IMG/VR virus record: IMGVR_UViG_3300037487_001109 | Location: 1 to 58,749 of that record | Reading direction: 5' to 3' (one strand) | DNA from: a virus | Length of the DNA: 58,749 nt | In this document: positions 14,380 through 58,749 of the stretch, one piece after another | Layout: every line of letters starts with the position of its first letter | Numbering within the stretch: the first letter of the stretch is position 1 | The notes under the pieces: generated by a model | Databases searched by the model: none | Seen by the model: only the letters and a program-made list of their open reading frames with translations | Told to the model about the DNA's origin: nothing | Translations under genes and position numbers: made by a program

Positions 14380-14413
14380 GTCCGCAGTCTACAGGTAGTT
14401 AGGTACACAGTCA

Positions 14414-14539
14414 ATGACTGACTATATAACTTTTTGTTTGATAATGTGAAATAATTGGGTGGGGTATGTATGGTCAAGTACTGATTATATAACTTTTTGT
14501 TTGATAATGTGAAATAATTGGGCGGGGTATGTATGGTCA
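14414..14539 (-). promoter_or_regulatory. Two tandem 63-bp repeats, each with a leftward sigma70-type promoter
   Basis: Units 14414-14476 and 14477-14539 are nearly identical. On the minus strand each contains TTCACA, 16 bases, then TATATA (-35 at 14445-14450 and -10 at 14423-14428 for the left copy; 63 bases further right for the other). The -35 matches consensus at five of six positions. Both fire toward the structural genes starting at 14379. Confidence 0.6.
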
Positions 14540-14819
14540 GGTCAACTGGAAGGCCCGCCCCCCCTTCCTATATACTACTTTTATCTAATACAATTTCACT
14601 ATATATAAATATACCTACCCCGGGGGTTTCCTGGATCTCTCTCCGTGCCGTGTTTTGAAATTAAAAGATACCTGCCACTTTCAGATTATTCGCTCTACCG
14701 CACGAGTTCAAACTAATAACCTAAACGAGAACATGAAAACTAATCACTAACGGCTCGTGCGCGTGCGCATACGTGTGTGTGTGTGTGATGTGTCTTGGCG
14801 CGTGGAAGATTAGAACTTT

Positions 14820-14848
14820 TTGTTTGACATGCTTTGATTAATTATGCT
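14820..14848 (+). promoter_or_regulatory. Early rightward promoter
   Basis: TTGTTT (14820-14825), 17 bases, TATGCT (14843-14848). The predicted start near 14855 lies just before the first hairpin leader. The -35 is embedded in the third copy of the box AACTTTTTGTTTGA. Confidence 0.5.
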
Positions 14849-14861
14849 AACGTGGAAAGTA

Positions 14862-14887
14862 CTGGAATAATCCAGCAAAAATTGGAG
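14862..14887 (+). promoter_or_regulatory. Leader element 1: hairpin plus AAATTGGAG
   Basis: Hairpin CTGGA-ataa-TCCAG (14862-14875), then AAATTGGAG (14879-14887), whose GGAG is the Shine-Dalgarno sequence for the ATG at 14897. First of a family of such leaders in this block. Confidence 0.65.
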
Positions 14888-14896
14888 AATAATAAA

Positions 14897-15187
14897 ATGA
14901 ATAATATAAATAAAACCGAAGTCGGCCCCGAGATGCGCGAGAATATACTGGAAAGAATGCGTGATATCTTTTATTCAAATGAAAGGTATTATGATGGGTG
15001 TAACGCAGAAGTACTGCGTGATATCCAAGATAACGCGACAGTAAACCAACTGCTCTCTATTTTATTTACCATGCAAGCTGGAAGATTCTTTAAACTTACT
15101 GCACGCGATTATCTAACCCACACTGTATTCCTAAACCAATCGGGAATGGTAATAGGAATAGAGACCGATGGTTATACGCACTCTTAA
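14897..15187 (+). CDS. Early protein, unknown function
   Basis: A 96-residue protein. ATG 14897 is chosen because it lies 9 bases after the GGAG of leader 1; an in-frame ATG at 14834 lies in the predicted promoter. Helical, mildly acidic; the centre reads ENILERMRDIFYSNERYYD and NQLLSILFTMQAGRFF. First gene of the early block. No family recognised. Confidence 0.65.
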   Translation: MNNINKTEVGPEMRENILERMRDIFYSNERYYDGCNAEVLRDIQDNATVNQLLSILFTMQAGRFFKLTARDYLTHTVFLNQSGMVIGIETDGYTHS

Positions 15188-15188
15188 A

Positions 15189-15242
15189 CTAATGCATTAG
15201 ATATCAGCTCTGCTGATATCGCTGGATTAATTTAAAATTGGG
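15189..15242 (+). promoter_or_regulatory. Leader element 2: palindrome, hairpin and AAATTGGGG
   Basis: A 12-bp palindrome CTAATGCATTAG (15189-15200) runs into hairpin GATATCAGC-tct-GCTGATATC (15200-15220), then AAATTGGGGTAA (15235-15246) before the ATG at 15251. The 19 bases TGGATTAATTTAAAATTGG (15223-15241) recur exactly at 15673-15691. Confidence 0.7.
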
Positions 15243-15250
15243 GTAAACAA

Positions 15251-15685
15251 ATGGATACAAATAAATTACGAGAAGTAGTCGTGTCTTTTAAAAAAACAAA
15301 TAAAACTTACTCAAGCATCAGGCGTGCTAGTGATGTCGCTGCAGTAGTACGTAAATGCTTAATAACAAATGCTAAAGAGAACTTTATAGCGCTATACCTA
15401 GATGGAGCGCACGCAGTTATAGCCTATTCAGTAGTCAGTGTAGGCCTACAGAATGCAACACAAGTACACCCAAGAGAGGTGTTCCAAGCTGCTATACTCT
15501 GCGGGGCACGCGCATTAGTAGTGGCGCATAATCATCCAAGTGGCTGCCTTGAACCAAGTAACGCAGACAAAGAAGTAACAAAAAATTTAAAATCAGCCGG
15601 AGATTTGCTAGGTATAAAACTATTAGATCACGTGATAGTTACTGAAACGTCAGAATACAGTTTTATGGAGAGTGGATTAATTTAA
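15251..15685 (+). CDS. RadC-family JAB/MPN+ protein
   Basis: A 144-residue protein matching the C-terminal domain of RadC. The metal-binding JAB signature is complete: AHNHPSGCLEPSNAD (HxHP, seven residues, SxxD, about residues 97-111), with the upstream NATQVHPREVFQAAILCGA block and the final LGIKLLDHVIVTE strand. The N-terminal helix-hairpin-helix of full RadC is missing. RadC domains are common on phages and mobile elements and have been linked to recombination or anti-restriction, but no enzyme activity is firmly established. Expression is likely controlled by leader 2. Confidence 0.88.
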   Translation: MDTNKLREVVVSFKKTNKTYSSIRRASDVAAVVRKCLITNAKENFIALYLDGAHAVIAYSVVSVGLQNATQVHPREVFQAAILCGARALVVAHNHPSGCLEPSNADKEVTKNLKSAGDLLGIKLLDHVIVTETSEYSFMESGLI

Positions 15686-15696
15686 AATTGGAGAAA
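15673..15696 (+). promoter_or_regulatory. Leader element 3: AAATTGGAGAAA without its own hairpin
   Basis: The conserved TGGATTAATTTAAAATTGG spans the stop of the RadC gene (TAA 15683-15685) and supplies AAATTGGAGAAA (15685-15696) for the ATG at 15702. No strong stem is seen directly upstream; the sequence there is coding. Confidence 0.6.
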
Positions 15697-15701
15697 ACAT
15701 T

Positions 15702-15956
15702 ATGACAATTGAGAAGACTGAGAGCGAATTAATACAAGAAGCATGGGAAGTACAGAATGCGTGTAACCTATCCGGAGTGGTGCATAGTTTTAGCGCTGCA
15801 ATATCTAGGCTGTGGACTATATACCAGACCGAAAATAAAAAATTCAGCACTACGGATATAGCCGAGCATATAGTCAGTAAATTATATGCGAGCAAAATCA
15901 TGTCATTATCCGGAGACCTGCCAATTGATCTATCAAGCTATGGTATTAAATATTGA
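15702..15956 (+). CDS. Conserved phage protein, unknown function
   Basis: An 84-residue protein. The motif EVQNACNLSGVVHSFSAAI followed by a C-terminal SKLYASKIMSLSG is of a type seen in small phage and plasmid proteins of unknown role. All-helical, no membrane segment. Start ATG 15702 follows leader 3 by about 8 bases. Confidence 0.75.
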   Translation: MTIEKTESELIQEAWEVQNACNLSGVVHSFSAAISRLWTIYQTENKKFSTTDIAEHIVSKLYASKIMSLSGDLPIDLSSYGIKY

Positions 15957-15966
15957 TTTGATTTAG

Positions 15967-16024
15967 TCAGAGACCTGACAGGTCTCTGATTAAATTAGTT
16001 CAATTATGGGCTAATTAAATTGGA
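15967..16024 (+). promoter_or_regulatory. Leader element 4: long hairpin, second hairpin, AAATTGGA
   Basis: An 11-bp inverted repeat TCAGAGACCTG-a-CAGGTCTCTGA (15967-15989), then AATTAG/CTAATT (15993-15998 with 16011-16016), then AAATTGGA (16017-16024) before the ATG at 16035. Neither stem is followed by a U-run, so it is not a standard terminator. Confidence 0.7.
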
Positions 16025-16034
16025 TAACAAAAAC

Positions 16035-16553
16035 ATGGAATTATTAATTAATCACACTAGCGAATCAAATGCTTATGAAGTTGCTGACTATCCATATGGG
16101 TACACGGCGAGATGTAAGATTAGATACTGGATTGAAACAACTAAGCACAAGCAAAGATCCTGCAGGCAGACCACCAATCCAAAAACCGGCCGATGGAATA
16201 AGCCGCAAAAATCGACCTACAGTGATTTAGTGGTATTATTTATTGAAGATGATACAGGGCACGTAAAACGCACTAGTTATAATATTCAATATGGTGAATA
16301 TCCTACATGGAAAACTTTTTTAGAGAAGTATCAATCTGTACTAGTATCACCTTATGAAATAGCACGGATAAAATACGGTAACGCGATATTTAGGGCACGT
16401 GAAATCCTGTATATTAAATCATTGGAACACTGCGCTTCCGGTAATATCTATGATGTACCGCAGAATTTTCGCGGTAAAATATCAACGGAAGCACTGTTAT
16501 TGGCCGCGAAAGAATCGGGATATGGCTTTAAATCAAGTTTAATGGAGGCATAA
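16035..16553 (+). CDS. Conserved phage protein, unknown function
   Basis: A 172-residue protein. ATG 16035 is preferred to an upstream TTG at 16020 because of the leader spacing. The N-terminal half has the pattern ESNAYEVADYPYGYTARCKIRYWIE and QTTNPKTGRWNKPQKSTYSD, which I recall from small proteins of phages and plasmids of Proteobacteria whose role is unknown. The C-terminal part is helical. The stop overlaps the next ATG (TAATG). Confidence 0.75.
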   Translation: MELLINHTSESNAYEVADYPYGYTARCKIRYWIETTKHKQRSCRQTTNPKTGRWNKPQKSTYSDLVVLFIEDDTGHVKRTSYNIQYGEYPTWKTFLEKYQSVLVSPYEIARIKYGNAIFRAREILYIKSLEHCASGNIYDVPQNFRGKISTEALLLAAKESGYGFKSSLMEA

Positions 16554-16774
16554 TGGAACCGATTAAAACATTGCAAGAGAGGTTATTAGCTGCAGGAGTT
16601 GGAATAGATCATCATTGTAGTGATTTATACTTCCCAGTCAGTGAAATCAGTAATAAGATACTGAGAGAGTATACGCTTGAATCTGCTATCAAGCCGAGTG
16701 TAGGCGCCTTTATCTGTAATATATCCAAAGCGCCTTGGTATGAGGTGCCTTTTCATTACAGTAAGACAGAATAG
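16553..16774 (+). CDS. Small early protein, unknown function
   Basis: A 73-residue protein translationally coupled to the preceding gene (TAATG overlap, GGAGG in the preceding codons). It has no hairpin leader of its own. Sequence: helical start (IKTLQERLLAAGVGIDHH), then mixed, ending APWYEVPFHYSKTE. No family recognised. Confidence 0.65.
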   Translation: MEPIKTLQERLLAAGVGIDHHCSDLYFPVSEISNKILREYTLESAIKPSVGAFICNISKAPWYEVPFHYSKTE

Positions 16775-16781
16775 TTAATAT

Positions 16782-16844
16782 GATAGCAGGCTTTAAAACC
16801 TGCTATCGCTTAACTAGTCAATCACGGCTAGTAAATTGGAGTAA
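16782..16844 (+). promoter_or_regulatory. Leader element 5: two hairpins and AAATTGGAGTAA
   Basis: Stem GATAGCAGG/CCTGCTATC (16782-16790 with 16799-16807), second stem ACTAG/CTAGT (near 16813-16832), then AAATTGGAGTAA (16833-16844) before the ATG at 16850. The last twelve bases are a perfect complement of the loop of the hairpin at 18013-18040. Confidence 0.7.
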
Positions 16845-16849
16845 ATTAC

Positions 16850-17080
16850 ATGAAAGCAGGCAAAGCACTGACGGAGATACCAAGATTTAACATAGTTAAA
16901 ATAATAACTAATGTGATTAATAACGCACTAAGCATTGAGCACGAGATACTTAAAACTGACATTATTCAATCTGAGATTAGAATCAGCTATTTGAATGCAT
17001 GCAAAATCCATGGTGCTGATACTATCCGCGTAGAATTAGCACGGTTGTACACACTGGAAGAATTGTTAATAGATGCATAA
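16850..17080 (+). CDS. Small early protein, unknown function
   Basis: A 76-residue helical protein (FNIVKIITNVINNALSIEH, IRVELARLYTLEELL) behind leader 5. No membrane segment or known motif. Its ribosome-binding site pairs at all 12 positions with the anti-leader loop, making it the best predicted target of that RNA. Confidence 0.65.
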   Translation: MKAGKALTEIPRFNIVKIITNVINNALSIEHEILKTDIIQSEIRISYLNACKIHGADTIRVELARLYTLEELLIDA

Positions 17081-17111
17081 TTTAAATTTAATAAAATTGG
17101 AGATTACTAAT

Positions 17112-17801
17112 ATGGAGCGTTTTAGAGACTTTCATCCCTCATCATGGGATTCAAAAGCTAACTATGTAGGCCAGTCAGATCACAATCATTGGTATGTTTT
17201 TAATATAATGAAGACAAGGGACGCGGATTTACTAACAGAGTCCAATTGGGATTATATCTGTAAAGAGCTTGAACCGGATGAAATAGCAGGCTGCGAGGTG
17301 CATACGTTCGGTCATTGGGCATGTGGTCATTATGATTTGATACTTATTCATCCTTGGCATAAAAAACTATTGGAAAAGGCACGAGACTTGGAAAAGCAGT
17401 TAGCTAGTTATCCTGTTTTAAACGAAGCTGATTATAACGCTAGATGTGAAATCGAGATTGATCGGCAATGGGATGACTTCGCACGTGACGATTTTATATC
17501 AGAATTATCAAAGTATACCGAGCTGGATTTAACAGAGTACAGCTCCGAGCAAATAGATGCTCTCTATTATTTCCTGCAAGAGATATCTGGCACCTATAGA
17601 GGTAGTTTTACTGAAGAGCCCAACTTTCATATAGAAGAGATTTGTCGTATCTACGGCACCACAATAACTAAAGAAGTCTATATGCCATGTATATTTGAGC
17701 GCAAAGTCAAAAACTTTCCAATTTCAGATAGCATGCTAGACCGTGTAATGAATCCAAAAAAGTATCACGAGCCCATTAATCAGATTAAATTATTTGAATA
17801 G
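17112..17801 (+). CDS. Conserved phage protein, unknown function
   Basis: A 229-residue protein. ATG 17112 lies 9 bases after AAATTGGAG (17094-17102); an ATG at 17073 is in frame but has no such site. The pattern DADLLTESNWDYICKELEPD followed by VHTFGHWACGHYDLILIHP is one I recall from proteins of phages and plasmids of Gram-negative bacteria, always of unknown function. The C-terminal half is acidic and helical. Last gene before the non-coding RNA-like region. Confidence 0.75.
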   Translation: MERFRDFHPSSWDSKANYVGQSDHNHWYVFNIMKTRDADLLTESNWDYICKELEPDEIAGCEVHTFGHWACGHYDLILIHPWHKKLLEKARDLEKQLASYPVLNEADYNARCEIEIDRQWDDFARDDFISELSKYTELDLTEYSSEQIDALYYFLQEISGTYRGSFTEEPNFHIEEICRIYGTTITKEVYMPCIFERKVKNFPISDSMLDRVMNPKKYHEPINQIKLFE

Positions 17802-17811
17802 TTAGGTTTGG

Positions 17812-17930
17812 CTTCCAGTTGATCTCTACCTTTCACCTGGAAGTCACTAGTTAGCTAATATCAACTAACCAAATTGGATATTTTAAAATAAAAATTACCT
17901 GTTCAAAATATGAACAGTTAAAAATTGGAC
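17812..17930 (+). other. Two orphan hairpin leaders without genes
   Basis: First: CTTCCAG/CTGGAAG (17812-17818 with 17837-17843), GTTAG/CTAAC (17850-17854 with 17865-17869), then AAATTGGAT (17871-17879). Second: CTGTTCA-aaata-TGAACAG (17899-17917), then AAATTGGAC (17922-17930). Neither is followed by a start codon at ribosome-binding distance. They may be remnants of lost genes or part of a structured RNA. Confidence 0.6.
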
Positions 17931-18012
17931 GCTATCTCCCTAGATAAACAGCCATAATTACGCTGACTTATGAAAAAGACCCTTCCAAATGTCCTGTTTT
18001 GTCCCTTAATCT

Positions 18013-18040
18013 AAACTAGGTTACTCCAATTTCCTAGTTT
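18013..18040 (+). ncRNA. Anti-leader hairpin (putative trans-acting small RNA core)
   Basis: A perfect 8-bp stem AAACTAGG/CCTAGTTT (18013-18020 with 18033-18040) presents the 12-base loop TTACTCCAATTT. The loop is the exact complement of leader 5 (AAATTGGAGTAA), pairs with leader 2 at 12 positions with one G-U, and with leader 3 at 11 of 12. It lies directly before a strong terminator, the usual layout of a 3'-derived small RNA. Complementarity and stem are seen in the sequence; the regulatory role is inference. Confidence 0.55.
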
Positions 18041-18043
18041 GCC

Positions 18044-18088
18044 CCTCTTCCAGTTTAGACTTATGAATTAAACTGGAAGAGGTTTTTT
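18044..18088 (+). terminator. Strong Rho-independent terminator of the early block
   Basis: A 14-bp perfect stem CCTCTTCCAGTTTA/TAAACTGGAAGAGG (18044-18057 with 18069-18082) with an 11-base loop, followed by TTTTTT. Confidence 0.92.
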
Positions 18089-18101
18089 CTTGTGTCAGCC
18101 T

Positions 18102-18599: not shown

Positions 18600-19040
18600 A
18601 TATTTCATAAAAAGACAAAACTGCACTTTCCAAATACAGGTCGGCACACTTTTGTATTTTTTAGAAAAAGCTGAAAGTGCCTTATATTCGATTTGGCCAA
18701 AAAGTGTGCCGACCTACCTGTTTGTGTGCCGACCTAAAACAGGGTCGGCACACCCCTGTAGCCCATTGAAATCATTAACGAATCCAGGAATAAAACAACT
18801 TCGTGTGCCGAGTGCCGACCTATTTCCAAACTTTTCCTTATATATAGTAATAAATAATACTATTGTTCCAGTAGTATATCTTATATATATATCTTCATAT
18901 ATGTTATTTATTAAAGAATAGTCGGCACACCGGCACAGACACACTTTTTCCTTGGGCATATCAACCGCTTACCCCCTGTGCCGACCCCTGTGCCGACCCC
19001 ATTTTAGGTCGGCACAGTCGGCACAGAACAAATTGTTCTA
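18600..19040. other. Candidate replication origin: iterons around an AT-rich core
   Basis: Twelve copies of GGTCGGCACA or its complement TGTGCCGACC occur here: 18639, 18705, 18725, 18743, 18804 (partial), 18811, 18921, 18930 (partial), 18977, 18989, 19007 and 19017. They flank an almost pure A+T stretch (18830-18920). The outer pair 18638-18653 and 18699-18714 forms a long inverted repeat. A palindrome AGAACAAATTGTTCT (19025-19039) overlaps the 3' end of the primase-helicase gene. Iterons plus AT-rich DNA beside a replication initiator gene is the classic layout of an origin. Confidence 0.7.
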
Positions 19041-21728: not shown

Positions 21729-21855
21729 ATATTTTATCTTGCAGTAGAGTTTGAATCGTGCCTAATATGCTTGCATAGCTTACAGGTGGTCTAATTACAT
21801 TAGCCAAGAGCAGGCTTGTTAGCAAGTACCTAAATTTTAATTGGAGAAAATATTT
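21729..21855. promoter_or_regulatory. Divergent promoter gap with a hairpin leader
   Basis: A 127-bp gap between the leftward replication unit and the rightward accessory operon. It holds a hairpin CTAAT-tac-ATTAG (21791-21803) and the leader AATTGGAGAAA (21839-21849) for the ATG at 21856, a further member of the early-leader family. I see no convincing -35/-10 pair on either strand. Confidence 0.5.
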
Positions 21856-22074
21856 ATGAACAACGAACGCACACTTGACAGCATCACCCTTTATCAGGAT
21901 GAACTTGAATCACTCCTGGTAACCGCCTATAGACTCTGTGAGTCCAGACTGCGGATGCTGGCAGAGCCGGTGTTTTCCCAAAAAGAGATTACCGAAGATA
22001 TAAAACACCTTGTTGCCAGTGCCAGAGTGTTCTCAGATGATAGTGAAATGATGGATGTACTTGTATGCGATTAG
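21856..22074 (+). CDS. Small acidic protein, unknown function
   Basis: A 72-residue acidic helical protein from ATG 21856, which follows the leader GGAG by 9 bases. Contains ITLYQDELESLLVTAYRLCE and EITEDIKHLVASARVF. First gene of the accessory operon; its end overlaps the glycosyltransferase start by 10 bases. No family recognised. Confidence 0.65.
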   Translation: MNNERTLDSITLYQDELESLLVTAYRLCESRLRMLAEPVFSQKEITEDIKHLVASARVFSDDSEMMDVLVCD

Positions 22075-22862
22075 GAATAACTGCAATTGTAAAAGACGAA
22101 GGGCTCTACCTTAAAGAATGGCTGATATTTCATAGCCTTCAGACGGTAGACGCCTTTTTTATTTATGATAACGGAAGCACCGACAACACGCGGGAGATAG
22201 TTGAGCAGTTTAAGCTAGATTACCCATATTTACAGGTGAATCTGATTGACTGGCAGGGACGCTGCCAGCAATTGCCTGCGTATAATCATTCAGTCAAGAA
22301 CAATAAAGACGTTGACTGGATGGCCTTTCTTGATGCAGATGAGTTTTTATACTCTCCAAAAGGCTACTCCATTAAAGAGTACATAGAGACTATCACACAC
22401 GTTAATTATAAGATTGCGGGCGTAGTGGCCAAGTGGAAACTGTTTGGTAGTGCTGGTGCAGACAGGCACGAGAAGGGCCTAGTGATTGAGAGATTCACTA
22501 AGTGTGCTGACAGAGTAGACCAGCATTGTAAATCTATTATGCGTATGGACCAGCTTATATCGGCAGGTAGAAATACCCACACATTCAGGTCAACTGGTAT
22601 TATTGTTGACGAAGATATGCACACTCTTCCATATGAATATGCCACATTAAGCAAAGCAGGCGCATCAACTATATGCATTAACCACTACCACACAAAATCA
22701 AAAGAAGAGTATCGCCTGCGCTGTCAGAAAGGATGTGCCGACAGTGAAGGGCAGAGAGAATTTGAGATATCCTTTTCATGCCACGATAGAAATGAGGCAG
22801 AGGATACGTATCTGAGGGATGCATATACACCTTTGATACGGGATAAAATATATGAAGAGTAA
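22065..22862 (+). CDS. Glycosyltransferase, GT92/GT2-like
   Basis: A 265-residue protein. The N-terminal nucleotide-sugar fold has ITAIVKDEGLYLKEWLIFH (residues 5-23), YDNGSTDNT (34-42) and a DxD metal site FLDADEF (D90, D92). A His-containing C-terminal segment (ICINHYHTKSKEEYRLR) matches the GT92/DUF23-like group. It would transfer a sugar, either to modified phage DNA bases or to the host surface to alter receptors; the sequence does not tell which. It overlaps both neighbours slightly. Confidence 0.85.
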   Translation: MRLGITAIVKDEGLYLKEWLIFHSLQTVDAFFIYDNGSTDNTREIVEQFKLDYPYLQVNLIDWQGRCQQLPAYNHSVKNNKDVDWMAFLDADEFLYSPKGYSIKEYIETITHVNYKIAGVVAKWKLFGSAGADRHEKGLVIERFTKCADRVDQHCKSIMRMDQLISAGRNTHTFRSTGIIVDEDMHTLPYEYATLSKAGASTICINHYHTKSKEEYRLRCQKGCADSEGQREFEISFSCHDRNEAEDTYLRDAYTPLIRDKIYEE

Positions 22863-25979: not shown

Positions 25980-26291
25980 ATGACGGACATTAAGGATACC
26001 CTTAAAGAGAGGGGCAAATCGTATGCTGAGTTTGAGTTTCAAGCCACCATATCCCAGCAACTAAAGAATGTACTACGTGCCTAAGAGAAGTGGGAGCACC
26101 TTGCAGATGACCAGAAAGAAGCACTTGAAATGGTTGTCCACAAGATTGCCAGAATCCTTAACGGAGACGTTAACTTCAGGGACAGTTGGTATGATCAACT
26201 TGGCTACCTGCAGTTAGTGGTAAACCGAATGGATAGAGATGCTGATCTTCTAAAAGAAGATATAAAGATTACAGACGACATACCCTTCTAA
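25980..26291 (+). pseudogene. DUF6378-like gene interrupted by an in-frame TAA
   Basis: ATG 25980 starts DIKDTLKERGKSYAEFEF..., reaching TAA at 26082-26084 after 34 codons. The same frame continues without another stop to TAA 26289-26291, encoding EKWEHLADDQKEALEMVVHK, then ILNGD, DSWYDQLGY and LVVNRM. Together these read as one DUF6378-type protein of about 102 residues, whose end overlaps the helicase start as TAATG. A nonsense mutation or a readthrough codon are the options; TAA serves as a normal stop elsewhere. Confidence 0.7.
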
Positions 26292-28495
26292 TGGAAAAGC
26301 TAATCTACCCACAAGACTGCACCCTCCTGCCCTTTCAAGCAGACTGCATACACAAGATGTTAGCATTCTTGCGGAATGGCGGAGGGTGCTACAATGCCTG
26401 TGAAATGGGGCTCGGGAAGAGTGTGCAGGCTATTGTGGCTATGAATACTATTCTCAGGTACGAGCTCTTACCTAAAATATTGATAGTATGCCCGGCAGTA
26501 ATGAGGCTGGTGTGGAGAGCAGAGTTACAAAAATGGCTTACGTCTCTACATCCAAGCGTACAAGTTCTAACATCTAGTAAACAGCTTAAACAAAAATCAA
26601 TGTGGCATGCTGTAACTATTATCTCATATGACTTAGCTGCAACTGATGAGTTTAAAAAATGGGCTGAACCATCATATGATATGCTTATCATGGATGAAGC
26701 GCATTACTGCGTTGCGGAAGACACACTAATAAACACTCCAGCAGGATTGGTGCCTATAAAAAGTCTAGTAGAGGGGGATATAGTTACAACAATTTCAGAT
26801 AATGGGGCTGACACTGGGCGCATTATACGCAAAATTAAAGGTAATGAAAAAGAGCCCAAAAGAAAAATTACCCTCAGTAACGGCTATACGCTTGAAGGGC
26901 TTGACTGGCACCTTGTTAGAACGCCTTTACAGTGGACCGAACTTGGAAAACTACAAGTATCCGATCCAGTGTCCGTGGTGCAAAAAGGTTTGGGACGCAC
27001 GCTACCCATCATGGGTAATGTGGAGAACTTTCTGCAGCGGCAGATGTGCAAAGCTAAACCATTGTCACAACGGTGGGTGGTCAGATCATATGCGAAAAAA
27101 GAACCCTATGAAGATTCCTGCGGCAAGAATGAAGATGCGGGCCACACTGAAACGTATAGGACACAAACCTCCACTACAGGGCGGGAACGGCAAGAAAGCA
27201 CCATTGGCACAGGTAAAATTAAAGCAATTATGCAAATTGGTATTTCCGCAGTATCAGGTAGTGTTAGAGTATGCAGTTGGGCTAGGATGCAAGCAGCCCG
27301 GATTTCCTACAGCGTACAAACTAGATGTGGGTATACCAGAATTAAAACTAGGGGTAGAGGCAGACGGGTATTCTCATCAAAGCCTAGTCAGGAAACAACA
27401 AGATTTGAAGAAAGACAAGAAATTGAAACAGCTAGGGTGGAGAATATTGAGATTTACGAACACGGAGATACTGGAGAAGCCGGCAAATGTTATTACGACC
27501 TTGAGCTCGATAGACACCACAACTATATAGCTAACGGTATTATAGTACATAATTGTAAGTCCCCCAAAGCTAAGCGTACCAAAGCTATCCTAAAACACAT
27601 CTGGCCTAGAGCAGTATTTAAAATCTGCCTCTCCGGCACACCCTTCACTAATAACGTCATAGATGGTTACACATTATTTAATAAACTCGCCCCATATGAC
27701 TTTCCTGATTTCTGGTCATTTGCTAACACCTATTCACATAGAAAGAACAACGGGTTTGGTATTACGTGGGAAGGGTTAAAGAATGCTGATAAACTACGTG
27801 CTATAATTAATAATAATTTCTTTTTACGTAAGACAAAAGCACAGGTGCTCCCAGAACTCCCGCCCAAAGTCTACCAGAAAATAACGCTTGATGAGTCCTA
27901 TGCACACAAACTCACTAAAGAGCAGGAAGCTGAATACGAGAGATACTACCAGGACCTGAAACGCCTGCTTGCCGGTAAAGAAACTACACGCATCCCGCCT
28001 CCTCCAGTATCCATTATGACAGTGCGTAGGGAGCAGGGGTTAAAAAAAGTTAAGCCTATTATCGAATTTGTTAAAAATATGCTTGAACAAAATGTCCCTG
28101 TTGTGCTATTTGGAATTTTCAGGGATGTGCTTACTGAATTTGAAGAGACTTTTAAATCCTATAAACCAGCAGTTATTCACGGCGACGTATCAGCAAAAAA
28201 AAGGCAAGAAGAAATTGAAAGATTTCAAGCCGGAGACACTGATTTATTTATTGGACAGCTTACAGCCGCAGGAGTTGGAATTACTCTCACTAGAGCTTCG
28301 GATGTTGTACTGGCGGAATTGTCCTATAGCCCTGCGGAGATATCACAAGCCGTGGACAGAACGCATAGAATATCTCAGAAAAACTCTGTCACCGTCCACT
28401 ACTTCGCGGTCGAAAACTCGGTTGACGAAAAAATAATTGATATTGTTATGGATAAAGCAAAGATATTTTCAGAGATTTTAAAAGAGGAGAAGTGA
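26291..28495 (+). CDS. SNF2-family DNA helicase interrupted by an intein
   Basis: A 734-codon frame; the mature helicase would be 452 residues. The N-terminal RecA-like domain has Walker A EMGLGKSVQ (38-46), and DEAH at 135-138 lies directly before the intein. After the intein come SGTPFTNN (motif III area), LTAAGVGITLTRASDVVLAE and SQAVDRTHRISQ (motifs V and VI), as in the single-chain SNF2 helicases used by many phages next to DUF2800, DUF2815 and family A polymerase genes. It would remodel or unwind replication forks. Start overlaps the DUF6378-like stop. Confidence 0.9.
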   Translation: MEKLIYPQDCTLLPFQADCIHKMLAFLRNGGGCYNACEMGLGKSVQAIVAMNTILRYELLPKILIVCPAVMRLVWRAELQKWLTSLHPSVQVLTSSKQLKQKSMWHAVTIISYDLAATDEFKKWAEPSYDMLIMDEAHYCVAEDTLINTPAGLVPIKSLVEGDIVTTISDNGADTGRIIRKIKGNEKEPKRKITLSNGYTLEGLDWHLVRTPLQWTELGKLQVSDPVSVVQKGLGRTLPIMGNVENFLQRQMCKAKPLSQRWVVRSYAKKEPYEDSCGKNEDAGHTETYRTQTSTTGRERQESTIGTGKIKAIMQIGISAVSGSVRVCSWARMQAARISYSVQTRCGYTRIKTRGRGRRVFSSKPSQETTRFEERQEIETARVENIEIYEHGDTGEAGKCYYDLELDRHHNYIANGIIVHNCKSPKAKRTKAILKHIWPRAVFKICLSGTPFTNNVIDGYTLFNKLAPYDFPDFWSFANTYSHRKNNGFGITWEGLKNADKLRAIINNNFFLRKTKAQVLPELPPKVYQKITLDESYAHKLTKEQEAEYERYYQDLKRLLAGKETTRIPPPPVSIMTVRREQGLKKVKPIIEFVKNMLEQNVPVVLFGIFRDVLTEFEETFKSYKPAVIHGDVSAKKRQEEIERFQAGDTDLFIGQLTAAGVGITLTRASDVVLAELSYSPAEISQAVDRTHRISQKNSVTVHYFAVENSVDEKIIDIVMDKAKIFSEILKEEK
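26708..27553 (+). other. Intein in the helicase DEAH motif
   Basis: 282 codons from Cys140 (TGC 26708-26710) to Asn421 (AAT 27551-27553), followed by Cys +1 (TGT 27554). Block A is CVAEDTLINTPAGLVPIKSL, block B contains the splicing His in GLDWHLVRT, and blocks F/G are CYYDLELDRHHNYIANGIIV then HN. Removal restores DEAHY-CKSPKAKR. The about 160 codons between block B and block F match no domain in this frame, because the DNA there encodes an endonuclease in another frame. Confidence 0.9.
26802..27530 (+). CDS. Homing endonuclease nested out of frame inside the intein
   Basis: A 242-codon frame shifted by +1 from the helicase/intein frame. It has a zinc-ribbon-like segment (CPWCKKVWDARYP, then FCSGRCAK), a basic linker, and a DUF559/Vsr-type PD-(D/E)XK nuclease core: YKLDVGIPELKLGVEADG, YSHQSL, then DKKLKQLGWRILRFTNTEI. 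Such nucleases are homing enzymes in phages. The start could be ATG 26802 or 26844; no good ribosome-binding site is seen. Both frames are open for over 700 bases. The conserved nuclease segment spans about 26960-27480, between the splicing blocks. Confidence 0.75.
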   Translation: MGLTLGALYAKLKVMKKSPKEKLPSVTAIRLKGLTGTLLERLYSGPNLENYKYPIQCPWCKKVWDARYPSWVMWRTFCSGRCAKLNHCHNGGWSDHMRKKNPMKIPAARMKMRATLKRIGHKPPLQGGNGKKAPLAQVKLKQLCKLVFPQYQVVLEYAVGLGCKQPGFPTAYKLDVGIPELKLGVEADGYSHQSLVRKQQDLKKDKKLKQLGWRILRFTNTEILEKPANVITTLSSIDTTTI

Positions 28496-28725: not shown

Positions 28726-29938
28726 TAAAGAATTGAATCACAAAGAAAGAGCCCACGCCCCATTTGGTGGCTCAGTAGCAGCACGCAGGATTAACTGTAC
28801 CGGCAGTTACTTCCTGGAGTCCCAGCTCCCCCCACAGCCAGCTTCCGCTGCAGCTGACGAAGGCACTGAAGCACATGAATGTGTGGAGTGGGCACTTGCA
28901 GATTTCCTCTATCGCAAAATCGAAGGTGAGGGTATAGATTTAGTAAAGCCAGTACACTTTAACAAGTACGCGCAGTTCGCGGAGGATTATGTCGACACCG
29001 TATGGACAAAGGCACTTCATAGCTCTATTACAGGAAAGTCGTATGCTATCGAGACGATTGTTACTATTAATGAGTCTCTGGGTATGTACGGGCCTTGTGA
29101 TTTTGCTTGCGTTTACTCAGACGAGCGAGGCCGTAGTTGTGCTATTGTTATCGACTATAAACATGGCTACAACTTTGTTCCTGTTGAAAAAAACGACCAG
29201 CTTGCACATTATGCTTGCGGATTACGCGAAGATGTACGCAGAGCTGGCAAAGACCTCGAGTACATACGAGCTGCAATTTACCAACCTCGCGCAGGTGGTG
29301 AAACATATAGAGAGGTTACTTTCACCGCAAAGTTTCTGGACAGCTGGAAAAAGCGTGCAATCAAAGCCGCCGAACAAATTTTCGTTAGTAAAAAAGCGAA
29401 GTTCAAGTGCGGAGAATGGTGTAAATTCTGCAGAGCCAAGCCAGTCTGTAAAGCGTATGCTAAGCAACGAACGATAGAGACCCAGCTTAACCTCGTTGAC
29501 CACGCTACAATTGAACTGCCAAAAGTTGATATGCTCTCCCCAGAGCACATAGTTAAACTGGTGCTGCATGGGGATAAGCTTATAGACCTTGTTGAAACTG
29601 CAAAGAAGATAGCCTTTGATGGCTGTGCGGCCAACGGCGAGTTTCACGGTTTAAAACTCGTTGAGGGTCGTGGTAAACGTGGCTGGGATAAGGGCCAAGA
29701 TGAAGACGAGATTGCCACCCAGATGAAGCAGCACGGTATCAAGACCCCCTATAAAGAATCTCTCCGTGGTATTACGGAAATTGAAAAGGAGCTTAAAAAG
29801 TTAAAGCCTGAAGCACAGGCCAAAGAGCTCATGGACTGCTGGACTACAAAGTCAGTCCCCAAAATTCTAGTTGATTCGACTGACCCGAGACCGGCTGTTG
29901 CCTGTGCTAAGGATATGCTTGAAGCAATTGGAGATTAA
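28715..29938 (+). CDS. DUF2800 family PD-(D/E)XK nuclease (Cas4/RecB-like)
   Basis: A 407-residue protein. N-terminus GGSVAARRINCTGSYFLE and the GTEAHECVEWAL helix match DUF2800. The nuclease core shows MYGPCDFACVY (Asp) and VIDYKHGYNFV (Asp-x-Lys). A C-terminal iron-sulfur-type cysteine cluster is KCGEWCKFCRAKPVC plus an upstream Cys, as in Cas4. In phages it is encoded with DUF2815 and a family A polymerase and probably processes DNA ends for recombination-dependent replication. Confidence 0.88.
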   Translation: MTNNKELNHKERAHAPFGGSVAARRINCTGSYFLESQLPPQPASAAADEGTEAHECVEWALADFLYRKIEGEGIDLVKPVHFNKYAQFAEDYVDTVWTKALHSSITGKSYAIETIVTINESLGMYGPCDFACVYSDERGRSCAIVIDYKHGYNFVPVEKNDQLAHYACGLREDVRRAGKDLEYIRAAIYQPRAGGETYREVTFTAKFLDSWKKRAIKAAEQIFVSKKAKFKCGEWCKFCRAKPVCKAYAKQRTIETQLNLVDHATIELPKVDMLSPEHIVKLVLHGDKLIDLVETAKKIAFDGCAANGEFHGLKLVEGRGKRGWDKGQDEDEIATQMKQHGIKTPYKESLRGITEIEKELKKLKPEAQAKELMDCWTTKSVPKILVDSTDPRPAVACAKDMLEAIGD

Positions 29939-29964: not shown

Positions 29965-30657
29965 ATGGCTGAAAAGATAAGCAAACATAAAACATACGGA
30001 TTCGTGTACGGAATTTCCAACAAAACCCCGCTGGGCAGACTGGCATGGGTTAATCTGGTTACTCCAAAAGAATCTACTTTCCCAGTTAAAGAGGGCGATA
30101 AGGTTCCGGCACCACGCTATGAACTTACCCTGCTACTTAAGAAGAGTGACCCAAAGGTAAAGGCCTTTGTTGCAGAACTCGAGCTACAGAAAAAAGAAAT
30201 GGTTGAGCTCTTTAATGAAGGCAAGAAAACAAAGATTGGTATAGACGAAGTTATTAAGGATGGGGATGAGATGGATACAGACTCCTATCCTTTCTATGCT
30301 GGTAACTACTACATGGTGCCAAAGAAAGAACAGCGCCCTCCTATCTATGACTCAAATGTAGAGCCAATAGAACCCGGAGCTGTCATAGGCGGTATGCCTG
30401 GACTTTGTGTAGTTCGTCCAATCTGCACCTCTCATGGTATCAGCTACCAGCTGCTTACTGTGCAGCTTGGGAAAGATGATGGCGTGAGATTTGGCGGAGG
30501 AAAGTCTGACGCTAAAGCACTATTAACCGCATTAGGAGATGAAGATGATGCACCATTTGATGAATCTGCTGAAGAGACTCCTGTTAAAACTAAAGATGTT
30601 GTAGCCGGAAAAGCTAAAGCACAAAAAGGTCAGCTTAATTTAGATAAGTTGGCATAA
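29965..30657 (+). CDS. DUF2815 family protein (putative single-strand DNA-binding protein)
   Basis: A 230-residue protein. Pattern TYGFVYGISNKTPLGRLAWVNLV, a Lys-rich middle, YPFYAGNYYMVPKK, then PGAVIGGMPGLCVVRPICT, ending in an acidic tail (ALGDEDDAPFDE). DUF2815 proteins are predicted OB-fold single-strand binding proteins, and the acidic tail would recruit partners. The operon partner is the DUF2800 nuclease. The nearest GGAG is at the end of the upstream gene, about 30 bases from the ATG. Confidence 0.85.
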   Translation: MAEKISKHKTYGFVYGISNKTPLGRLAWVNLVTPKESTFPVKEGDKVPAPRYELTLLLKKSDPKVKAFVAELELQKKEMVELFNEGKKTKIGIDEVIKDGDEMDTDSYPFYAGNYYMVPKKEQRPPIYDSNVEPIEPGAVIGGMPGLCVVRPICTSHGISYQLLTVQLGKDDGVRFGGGKSDAKALLTALGDEDDAPFDESAEETPVKTKDVVAGKAKAQKGQLNLDKLA

Positions 30658-30664
30658 ACAAGTT

Positions 30665-30749
30665 TTCGTATTTTCACTCCAATTTTAATACGAGCGTCTT
30701 ACTAGGACGTTAAAACGGTTGGCTTAGCGGTAAAAGTAACCGCCCTTTT
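30665..30749 (+). ncRNA. Second anti-leader hairpin and following stems
   Basis: Between the DUF2815 and polymerase genes lie three consecutive hairpins. The first (TTCGTATT/AATACGAG, 30665-30672 with 30687-30694) has loop TTCACTCCAATTTT, whose ACTCCAATTT is complementary to AAATTGGAGT of the early leaders. The second is GCGTC/GACGT (30694-30710), the third GCGGT/ACCGC (30727-30743) followed by CCTTTTA, a weak terminator. It may be a small RNA or a structured polymerase leader. Confidence 0.45.
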
Positions 30750-35547: not shown

Positions 35548-36011
35548 AAAGAAATTCAGGAAAGCACGGCTTAGCTGATACTGCACTATATAGTATATGG
35601 CGAAATATGATTAGCAGATGCTATAAAACTACTGCTAAAGATTATCATAACTACGGCGGTAGAGGTATAAGGGTCTGTGAAGCATGGCGTAGTGTTACTA
35701 ACTTTTATACCGATAATCTACATACGTATACTGCCGGGTTGACGCTGGACAGAGTAGATAACGACCGTGAGTACAGCCCAGCTAACTGTATATGGGCTAA
35801 TAGAAAGGCACAAGCGCAAAAACGCAGGTCTAATATTACTGTATATTTATGGGGGTCTACTTATAATTTAAAGCAGGCACTTCGTATCTTGAGTATCAGT
35901 TATGATTTCTTTAAGTACTACAGGAAAAAGCACAAAATAATAAATCACGATACTGCAATAATAGCCTGTATTGAAAAACAAAATAGAGAAAGACTTGGGA
36001 GTTATCGCTAA
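35544..36011 (+). CDS. Free-standing HNH homing endonuclease
   Basis: A 155-residue protein. Typical phage HNH pattern: WRNMISRCYKTTAKDYHNYGG, VCEAW, then LTLDRVDNDREYSPANCIWA followed by RKAQAQKRR. The C-terminal part binds the target site. It starts inside the end of the lipoprotein gene and ends at the ATG of the glycosyltransferase, suggesting insertion between formerly adjacent genes. Confidence 0.88.
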   Translation: MKRNSGKHGLADTALYSIWRNMISRCYKTTAKDYHNYGGRGIRVCEAWRSVTNFYTDNLHTYTAGLTLDRVDNDREYSPANCIWANRKAQAQKRRSNITVYLWGSTYNLKQALRILSISYDFFKYYRKKHKIINHDTAIIACIEKQNRERLGSYR

Positions 36012-36883
36012 TGGCACTTGTATCAATCATCACATGCACCGGCTTCAGGTCACAGGCTCTGGCTCTATGCCAAAGGTATATTGAAAGACAGACTTTCCGT
36101 GGCACCCTACAGTGGATTGTTGTTAAAGATGATGCCACTCCTGACACTCTTACAACTACCAAGCGGGGCCTTACAATTGAGCAGTATCAAGGTCCCAGAG
36201 TCTGGACCCCTGACTACAATACGCATAGGGGCAACATGGAACTTGCTCTTACTAAGGTAAAAGGGGATTACCTCTTTATACTGGAAGACGATGACTACTA
36301 CGCCCCAAAGTACATACAGTCATATGTAGACGTAATGGGTAGCGTAGACGTTGTGGGTCTGGCGTCTGCCAAGTACTTCCATGTTAAATGTGGCGGATGG
36401 AAGGTGCTGGGTAATGATAAGCATGCATCCCTTGCCTCTACTGCTGTAAAGAAGTCAGCTATTCCGCTTATGTCTAAGGCCGTAGACTCGGGCGAACTGT
36501 ATGCCGATAGGGTTTTTTGGGCGGATATTCATAAAAACAACCGCTCCCATGCCTTATTAGGAGGGGTATCAACGTCTGTAGGTATCAAGGGTATGCCTGG
36601 ACGTGGGGGCATCACCCCTTCCCACCGCGAAATGCGGGACTATCTCATTGACTCAGATTGTAGTGTTATCAAAAGCTGGATTAATGAGGATTACGCTTTA
36701 TATTCACCATATTGTACAAGGATAAAAAATGAAATCAAAACTAGAGAAGAAAACAATTTCAAGCAAAAAATCAAAGATGCCGGTGTCCCCCTCACAGCCC
36801 CAGCGTACTTCCCAGACTCCGGAGCAATCGCCTCGGCCATCAAAGCTCTCGAAAAAGCCACCTCAAAAACCAGCTTCAAATAA
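36011..36883 (+). CDS. Glycosyltransferase family 2-like
   Basis: A 290-residue protein with a GT-A fold start (VSIITCTGFRSQALALC), strand IVVKDDATPD and metal-binding FILEDDDYY (92-95). The C-terminal third is helical and charged. It would transfer a sugar to DNA, virion or host glycan. It lies in the lysis/DNA region near the HNH gene and is unrelated in sequence to the transferase at 22065-22862. Confidence 0.8.
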   Translation: MALVSIITCTGFRSQALALCQRYIERQTFRGTLQWIVVKDDATPDTLTTTKRGLTIEQYQGPRVWTPDYNTHRGNMELALTKVKGDYLFILEDDDYYAPKYIQSYVDVMGSVDVVGLASAKYFHVKCGGWKVLGNDKHASLASTAVKKSAIPLMSKAVDSGELYADRVFWADIHKNNRSHALLGGVSTSVGIKGMPGRGGITPSHREMRDYLIDSDCSVIKSWINEDYALYSPYCTRIKNEIKTREENNFKQKIKDAGVPLTAPAYFPDSGAIASAIKALEKATSKTSFK

Positions 36884-58294: not shown

Positions 58295-58749
58295 CTAGCC
58301 AGCTCCAAGTAGTGCTAATAGTGAACTTCCTGCGCTATGGTCTCCCTGGTCAAAGCCTATATTCCATCTATAGTCATATATTAAACCTGAAGGCACATAC
58401 TGCATATCTAATGCTGGGGAGCCAGCAGAAACTCTCAAGTCTCCGTTTGCTGGGTCTACTAATAAAGGGTTTGCTATAACATCACTATTACCCAGTACTG
58501 CGTTAGTAGCATTTGTAGTATTATTCCAAATGTTGCTTGCGAAGCTCATCGGCCTTGAAATATTATCACTAGTTACACCTGTAGTGCACCCGTTTATTAT
58601 ACATGCGCATACCACAGACCCCCCTCCAGCATTACAATCTATTCCTGTAGTGCAGTTAGTAATGGTACAGTTAGTTACGCTGCTATACGTGGATAGGCGC
58701 ATCCCGACCGTACATGCTCTAGCTATACAGTTGCTTATAGTAGTACACA
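58295..58749 (-). CDS. Tail spike, 3' part (continues at 977-1)
   Basis: The C-terminal part of the beta-helix spike, ending at TAG/TAA near 58295. An ATG at 58702 is internal to the full gene and is not a likely start. The segment has beta-helix sequence (VTNCTITNCTTGIDC, CACIINGCTTGV) and a C-terminal cap (GDLRVSAGSPALDMQYV, YDYRWNIGFDQGDHS). See the entry at 1-977. Confidence 0.8.
   Translation of the reverse strand, partial: CTTISNCIARACTVGMRLSTYSSVTNCTITNCTTGIDCNAGGGSVVCACIINGCTTGVTSDNISRPMSFASNIWNNTTNATNAVLGNSDVIANPLLVDPANGDLRVSAGSPALDMQYVPSGLIYDYRWNIGFDQGDHSAGSSLLALLGAG
58602..58749. repeat. Right copy of the 148-bp terminal overlap
   Basis: Matches bases 1-148 except at 58623 (C, versus A at 22). 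Confidence 0.95.

Follow-up and report, generated by a model that had tools for sequence, protein, structure and literature searches.

The window analysed here is the whole of IMG/VR record IMGVR_UViG_3300037487_001109 (58,749 nt), which derives from an uncultured virus and, by the set of proteins it encodes (Pfam and PHROGs), is a tailed bacterial virus. Between 14.9 and 17.8 kb it carries a cluster of seven open reading frames (ORFs) on the + strand, of which only the second, encoding a RadC domain, has a Pfam match. A short motif, AAATTGG, occurs eight times within 14.86-17.93 kb (L1 to L8, Table 1) and precedes six of the seven ORFs at a spacing like that of a Shine-Dalgarno (SD) sequence, the ninth base of the motif lying 9, 7, 8, 9, 8 and 9 nt from the ATG at L1 to L6, respectively. 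The remaining ORF, at 16553, overlaps the preceding one and has an SD sequence unrelated to the motif, and no ORF of at least 20 amino acids follows L7 or L8. The SD sequences of the other phage genes differ, and outside the cluster only 21839 has AATTGGAG ahead of a start codon.

Leader motifs and complementary hairpin loops

The complement of the motif, CTCCAATTT, is found six times in the window, as compared to a mean of 0.63 and a maximum of 3 in 100 shuffles. Four of these copies correspond to the reverse reading of the leaders L1, L3, L5 and L6. Both remaining copies, on the + strand, lie within the apical loops of perfect hairpins located after genes (hairpins A and B), a placement in which only about 0.3% of 9-mer positions fall when loops of 7-bp hairpins are considered. 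The two stems are unlike each other, while the loops agree, and all 12 nt of loop A are the exact complement of L5. The folding z-score at the locus of A is -5.9, and a 14-bp intrinsic terminator follows directly; between B and the terminator-like stem behind it stands a further small hairpin. The first-pass annotation had alluded to an antisense loop, a hint that gains strength from the second hairpin with the same loop.

Of the 314 hairpins in the window, A and B are the only ones with 9-nt matches to four gene leaders each; a third hairpin matches two, and the rest match none or one. In 175 other loci of at least 5 kb, which are not independent (some are near copies and some were chosen for a leader-like pattern), one hairpin of 13,934, whose loop is T-rich, matches four leaders; a further five match three, for the most part through plain anti-SD loops. 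We also scored the duplex energies of loop A at 63 places taken as gene starts, two of which are not at a start codon. The best duplexes are formed with L5 (-14.0) and L2 (-13.2), and those with L1, L3 and L6 (-10.5) rank within the top six of the 63; once the cost of opening the leader is included, the net energies of A on the six ORF leaders range from -6.4 to -12.6 kcal/mol.

Table 1. Positions of leader motifs, hairpins and associated elements in the window
Feature	Positions	Strand	Sequence or structure	Context
Promoter-like sequence	14824-14853	+	TTGACA, 18 nt, TG-C-TAACGT	read from the sequence; just upstream of first leader
Hairpin	14862-14875	+	CTGGA-ATAA-TCCAG	before L1
Leader motif L1	14879-14887	+	AAATTGGAG	before ORF 14897-15187
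Stop-proximal hairpin	15200-15220	+	9 bp
Leader motif L2	15235-15243	+	AAATTGGGG	before RadC-domain ORF 15251-15685
Leader motif L3	15685-15693	+	AAATTGGAG	overlaps end of RadC ORF; before ORF 15702-15956
Stop-proximal hairpin	15967-15989	+	10 bp, 3-nt loop
Proximal hairpin	15993-16016	+	AATTAG/CTAATT
Leader motif L4	16017-16025	+	AAATTGGAT	before ORF 16035-16553
Stop-proximal hairpin	16782-16807	+	9 bp
Proximal hairpin	16813-16832	+	ACTAG/CTAGT
Leader motif L5	16833-16844	+	AAATTGGAGTAA	before ORF 16850-17080
Leader motif L6	17094-17102	+	AAATTGGAG	before ORF 17112-17801
Stop-proximal hairpin	17812-17843	+	CTTCCAG/CTGGAAG
Proximal hairpin	17850-17869	+	GTTAG/CTAAC
Orphan motif L7	17871-17878	+	AAATTGGA	no ORF after
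Hairpin	17899-17917	+	CTGTTCA/TGAACAG
Orphan motif L8	17922-17929	+	AAATTGGA	no ORF after
Candidate antisense hairpin A	18013-18040	+	AAACTAGG-TTACTCCAATTT-CCTAGTTT; 8 bp, 12-nt loop	loop complementary to leaders
Intrinsic terminator of A	18044-18088	+	14-bp stem, then TTTTTT
Isolated motif copy	21839-21846	+	AATTGGAG	before ORF 21856-22074; possible further target
Candidate antisense hairpin B	30666-30693	+	TCGTATT-TTCACTCCAATTTT-AATACGA; 7 bp, 14-nt loop	just past SSB-like ORF 29965-30657
Terminator-like stem after B	30727-30743	+	weak U tract

Two kinds of hairpins between the genes

The hairpins of the cluster are supported as real and not a product of chance, as the first-pass annotation had assumed. 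The region 14800-18100 contains seven perfect hairpins with stems of 7 bp or longer (at least two G/C per arm, loop of 3-12 nt), including a gene-internal one at 15866 and those at 18013 and 18044, whereas 200 Markov sequences had 1.3 on average and never more than 6. In non-coding DNA, hairpins of at least 7 bp with at least three G/C are denser in the cluster (7 in 505 nt) than elsewhere (5 in 2958 nt, p = 0.0005), and remain so when the pair at 18013 and 18044 is left out (p = 0.009). Six of the eight motif sites fold better than shuffles (z-scores of -2.33, -3.17, -6.47, -4.36, -2.82 and -2.51 for L1, L2, L4, L5, L7 and L8); the two exceptions, L3 (-0.19) and L6 (0.85), have no hairpin of any kind, the upstream gene extending up to the leader.

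Two kinds of hairpins have to be separated. At four junctions, a strong stem (7-10 perfect bp) begins 7, 10, 10 or 12 nt past the stop codon, and its end lies 14-27 nt ahead of the motif; the position of these stems tracks the upstream stop codon and not the motif. Weaker proximal stems end 0-4 nt ahead of the motif at five of the eight sites, where a perfect stem is far more frequent than at other AATT sites (21/296, p = 0.00015). The earlier description, in which at least six leaders had hairpins directly before the motif, thus stands in part. All the stems it quoted are present, the one at 15967-15989 with 10 bp and a 3-nt loop rather than with 11 bp, which would leave a 1-nt loop. Six hairpin-bearing sites do exist, but only four (14879, 15235, 16017 and 16833) precede an ORF, those at 17871 and 17922 do not, and the leaders at 15685 and 17094, which do, are without a hairpin. 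"Directly before" fits the stems at 14862-14875 and 17899-17917 but not the strong ones, and three weaker stems that abut the motif (15993-16016, 16813-16832 and 17850-17869) had been missed.

It had also been proposed that a conserved structure with changing stem sequence betrays selection on RNA folding, a claim that could be tested only weakly. The strong stems have no sequence in common and are hence not homologous columns, and a MAFFT alignment of L4, L5 and L7 did not align the distal stems. The only alignable stems are the three proximal ones, ATTAG/CTAAT, ACTAG/CTAGT and GTTAG/CTAAC, in which two of five pairs differ on both sides and all 15 cells are paired. No U-run follows the leader hairpins on the + strand, as had been noted, and since none of them was terminator-like there in the intrinsic-terminator test, the statement that they are not ordinary terminators is supported.

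A stop-proximal stem follows 6 of the 65 called genes of the window, four of these six being cluster genes. We compared this with G001, a 56.7-kb record holding the only clearly related locus (L015) among 80 loci retrieved by a primase alignment search, and encoding a TerL about 49% identical to that of this virus. There, 2 of 65 called genes in three scanned stretches have such a stem; one of the two, located in a syntenic neighbourhood, is succeeded by another inverted repeat and then the next gene, and the syntenic stretch contains no AAATTGGAG leaders. The stems therefore look independent of the motif, and the strong ones probably do not serve as scaffolds for antisense pairing; they look like an intercistronic 3'-end or insulating structure.

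A putative antisense control of the cluster and its alternatives

We consider it rather probable that intercistronic structures are combined here with one or two antisense hairpins in 3' untranslated regions (3'UTRs), covering an extended SD sequence shared by several genes. This suggests that the virus may turn several genes off together through a built-in antisense RNA. AAATTGGAG would be the extended SD sequence common to the cluster. The polycistronic transcript would be cut, the stop-proximal hairpins protecting the 3' end of the upstream cistron and insulating the next leader, while the weaker proximal stems may help to hold the motif single-stranded. Since A is found where the cluster ends on its 3' side and has no promoter-like site nearby, the cluster's own transcript, in which A stands ahead of its terminator, would be its simplest source. 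Once released by processing, loop A, exposing the exact complement, could cover the SD sequences of several cistrons at once, and an accumulating transcript would thereby lower translation of the unit. Hairpin B, after the gene of a protein like single-stranded DNA-binding proteins (SSB-like), would tie the same shut-off to the expression of the replication genes. L7 and L8 lie downstream of the last ORF and upstream of A; they could be decoys, or leaders whose genes have been lost. A further copy of AATTGGAG lies at 29926-29933, at the extreme end of the exonuclease ORF and 31 nt ahead of the SSB-like ORF that has hairpin B on its 3' side, and is a possible further pairing site. As to transcription of the cluster, we infer a putative promoter at the promoter-like sequence upstream of L1, which is not among the sites reported by a consensus scan. 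This sequence has AACTTTTTGTTTGA in common with a 63-nt unit present in about two copies upstream of the cluster (14410-14539).

Several observations weigh against such a control. L4 is only 14th of 63 in duplex energy with loop A, behind the non-leader genes 25491 (-11.1, third) and 24448 (-9.8), and L4, L7 and L8 are complementary over 8 nt only; given the rank of L4, pairing of A with these three is doubtful. At the locus of B the folding z-score is only -1.3 and the following terminator is weak, and no promoter-like site was found at A or B. None of 308 hairpins in G001 matches more than one leader, and no relative carrying the cluster was found among viral contigs, genome contigs or phage records. 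No RNA chaperone, of the FinO/ProQ family or otherwise, was found among the 28 window proteins compared with Pfam, which are part of the proteome; a host protein could serve instead.

A wider version is tentative, and we lean against it: a phage-wide RNA regulon, in which the SD "address" would stand before at least six cistrons, two 3'UTR hairpins would present the same loop on different stems, and L7 and L8 would act as decoys holding A until the transcript is cut. If true, a whole operon could be silenced compactly, cistron by cistron, through a shared address and two loops on unrelated stems; an origin of trans-acting RNAs by leader inversion would also be shown. The motif-loop test itself could be applied to all phage genomes.

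The stop-proximal hairpins may alternatively be sites at which RNase III or RNase E cuts the transcript into single-gene mRNAs, a possible though not a favoured explanation that is compatible with antisense control. The stems 7-12 nt past the stop codon at four junctions, with no U-run, are in line with it, but with 7-10 perfect bp they are short for an RNase III substrate.

It is unlikely that everything here is ordinary, with AAATTGGAG being a local SD variant multiplied through leader duplication and A a functionless leader copy inverted by chance. Between A and the reversed L5 there is a 17-nt match with a single mismatch (CTAG plus AAATTGGAGTAA), which exceeds all 500 shuffles, as an inverted copy would lead one to expect. 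Also in favour of this reading, the stem at 17812-17843 resembles the terminator stem of A, and L2 and L3 have a 19-nt stretch in common. Because of the first two of these similarities, the sequences suggest that A may indeed have arisen by inversion of a leader unit. Yet a second loop on a different stem 12.6 kb away is left unexplained, as is the fact that both copies ended up as apical loops, and an inversion is a possible origin of an antisense RNA and does not exclude a function.

A role of the leader hairpins in offering the motif to the antisense loop, as the first-pass annotation had suggested, or in switching between open and SD-hiding folds appears quite improbable. The excess of perfect stems 0-4 nt before the motif speaks for this, as does the minimum-energy fold of L4, which pairs TTCAATTA with the motif. 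The idea is nevertheless weakened by the hairpin-less leaders L3 and L6, by the strong stems following the stop codon, and by the hairpins without motif in G001, one of them syntenic. Lastly, the motif could be recognised, as DNA or as RNA, by a phage protein (as an operator, a translational repressor site, or a site for an endonuclease like RegB of T4, which cuts at GGAG), with the hairpins positioning it. This would suit the GGAG of most leaders and the hairpins adjoining the motif at five of eight sites, but is very unlikely given eight sense copies on one strand, six of them at a fixed distance to the ATG, two reverse copies that are both hairpin loops, GGGG in L2, and no GGAG in L4, L7 and L8.

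Known antisense systems, relatives and other features of the genome

The putative antisense control resembles several known systems in part. The C4 RNA of phages P1 and P7 pairs around the ribosome-binding site of a phage mRNA through complementary sequences that probably lie in loops, and blocks translation of that mRNA (PMC12197685); the loop described here is likewise complementary to phage ribosome-binding sites. Unlike C4, whose target is outlined there as the ant mRNA, one loop sequence in two copies would match at least six leaders of the cluster. As for an antirepressor target such as that of C4, Pfam matched RadC only among the cluster ORFs. No Rfam family, C4 included, reached its gathering score in the window, the sub-threshold matches at A and B being unrelated. 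The small RNA sar of phage P22 also blocks translation of a phage mRNA, and as far as the same outline goes it has a single target, unlike the candidate multi-leader loop. OppZ and CarZ of Vibrio cholerae are small RNAs from the 3' end of operons that pair with and repress the translation start of their own operon (PMC7398697). Similarly, A with its terminator (18013-18088) lies downstream of the last ORF, is complementary to the leaders of its own operon, and would putatively repress them. Small RNAs of this type are set free by RNase E cleavage, and A would be released by processing as well. It differs in that OppZ, chromosomal and described as acting through its 5' end on a single site, oppB, contrasts with a phage hairpin loop matching the leaders of most cistrons. 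RocR and the plasmid-borne RocRp of Legionella, in which one small RNA with a terminator stem-loop represses several mRNAs by base-pairing (PMC9977716), offer a parallel for one RNA with a terminator stem-loop and several candidate targets; in the account given there the targets are host competence mRNAs and the chaperone RocC is needed, whereas the matching leaders here belong to the phage itself. The phage antisense RNAs sar, C4 and OOP act, in the accounts consulted, on one or few sites. Among open-licence papers, nothing resembling a phage RNA that serves many leaders of the same operon through a single loop turned up.

Searches for relatives yielded little beyond G001. In viral contigs, neither a 26-nt pattern of hairpin A nor the primase alone as query returned anything, and the pattern AGGNNACTCCAATTTCCT matched nine stretches, none with the arrangement of hairpin and terminator. 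The leader pattern matched 105 stretches and the loop pattern four in genome contigs, with none of the 109 combining several leaders with a matching loop, so that the suggested search for the same leader in other genomes revealed no second case. TerL patterns matched G001 and a 5.6-kb fragment whose TerL is 91% identical and which does not reach the cluster; genome contigs gave no TerL match, and the terminase had none among 50,697 phage records. Likewise, the cluster region and the proteins of ORFs 17112 and 16035 had no match in phage records, and RadC found only general relatives, below 43% identity among the matches listed.

Apart from the cluster, the virus encodes a DNA polymerase of family A, a D5-type primase, an intein-carrying SNF2 helicase, a Gp2.5-like SSB, an exonuclease, a lytic tail protein and a distant terminase, all assigned by Pfam and PHROGs. 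A Legionella conjugative element with RocRp, an idea that had been prompted by radC together with the CTCCAAT loop, was ruled out, as both databases indicate a tailed phage. A direct repeat of 148 nt with one mismatch is present at both termini (1-148 and 58602-58749), and the genome may therefore be complete. An iteron-like cluster of repeated GTGTGCCGACC/GGTCGGCACAC elements (18625-19026) adjoins the primase gene on its 3' side; the corresponding place in G001 (about 1880-2070 of L015) has different repeats, CCTAAGTT. The intein-like domain (residues 156-421) interrupts the SNF2 helicase gene at 26291-28495, and two glycosyltransferase family 2 genes are located at 22065-22862 and 36011-36883.

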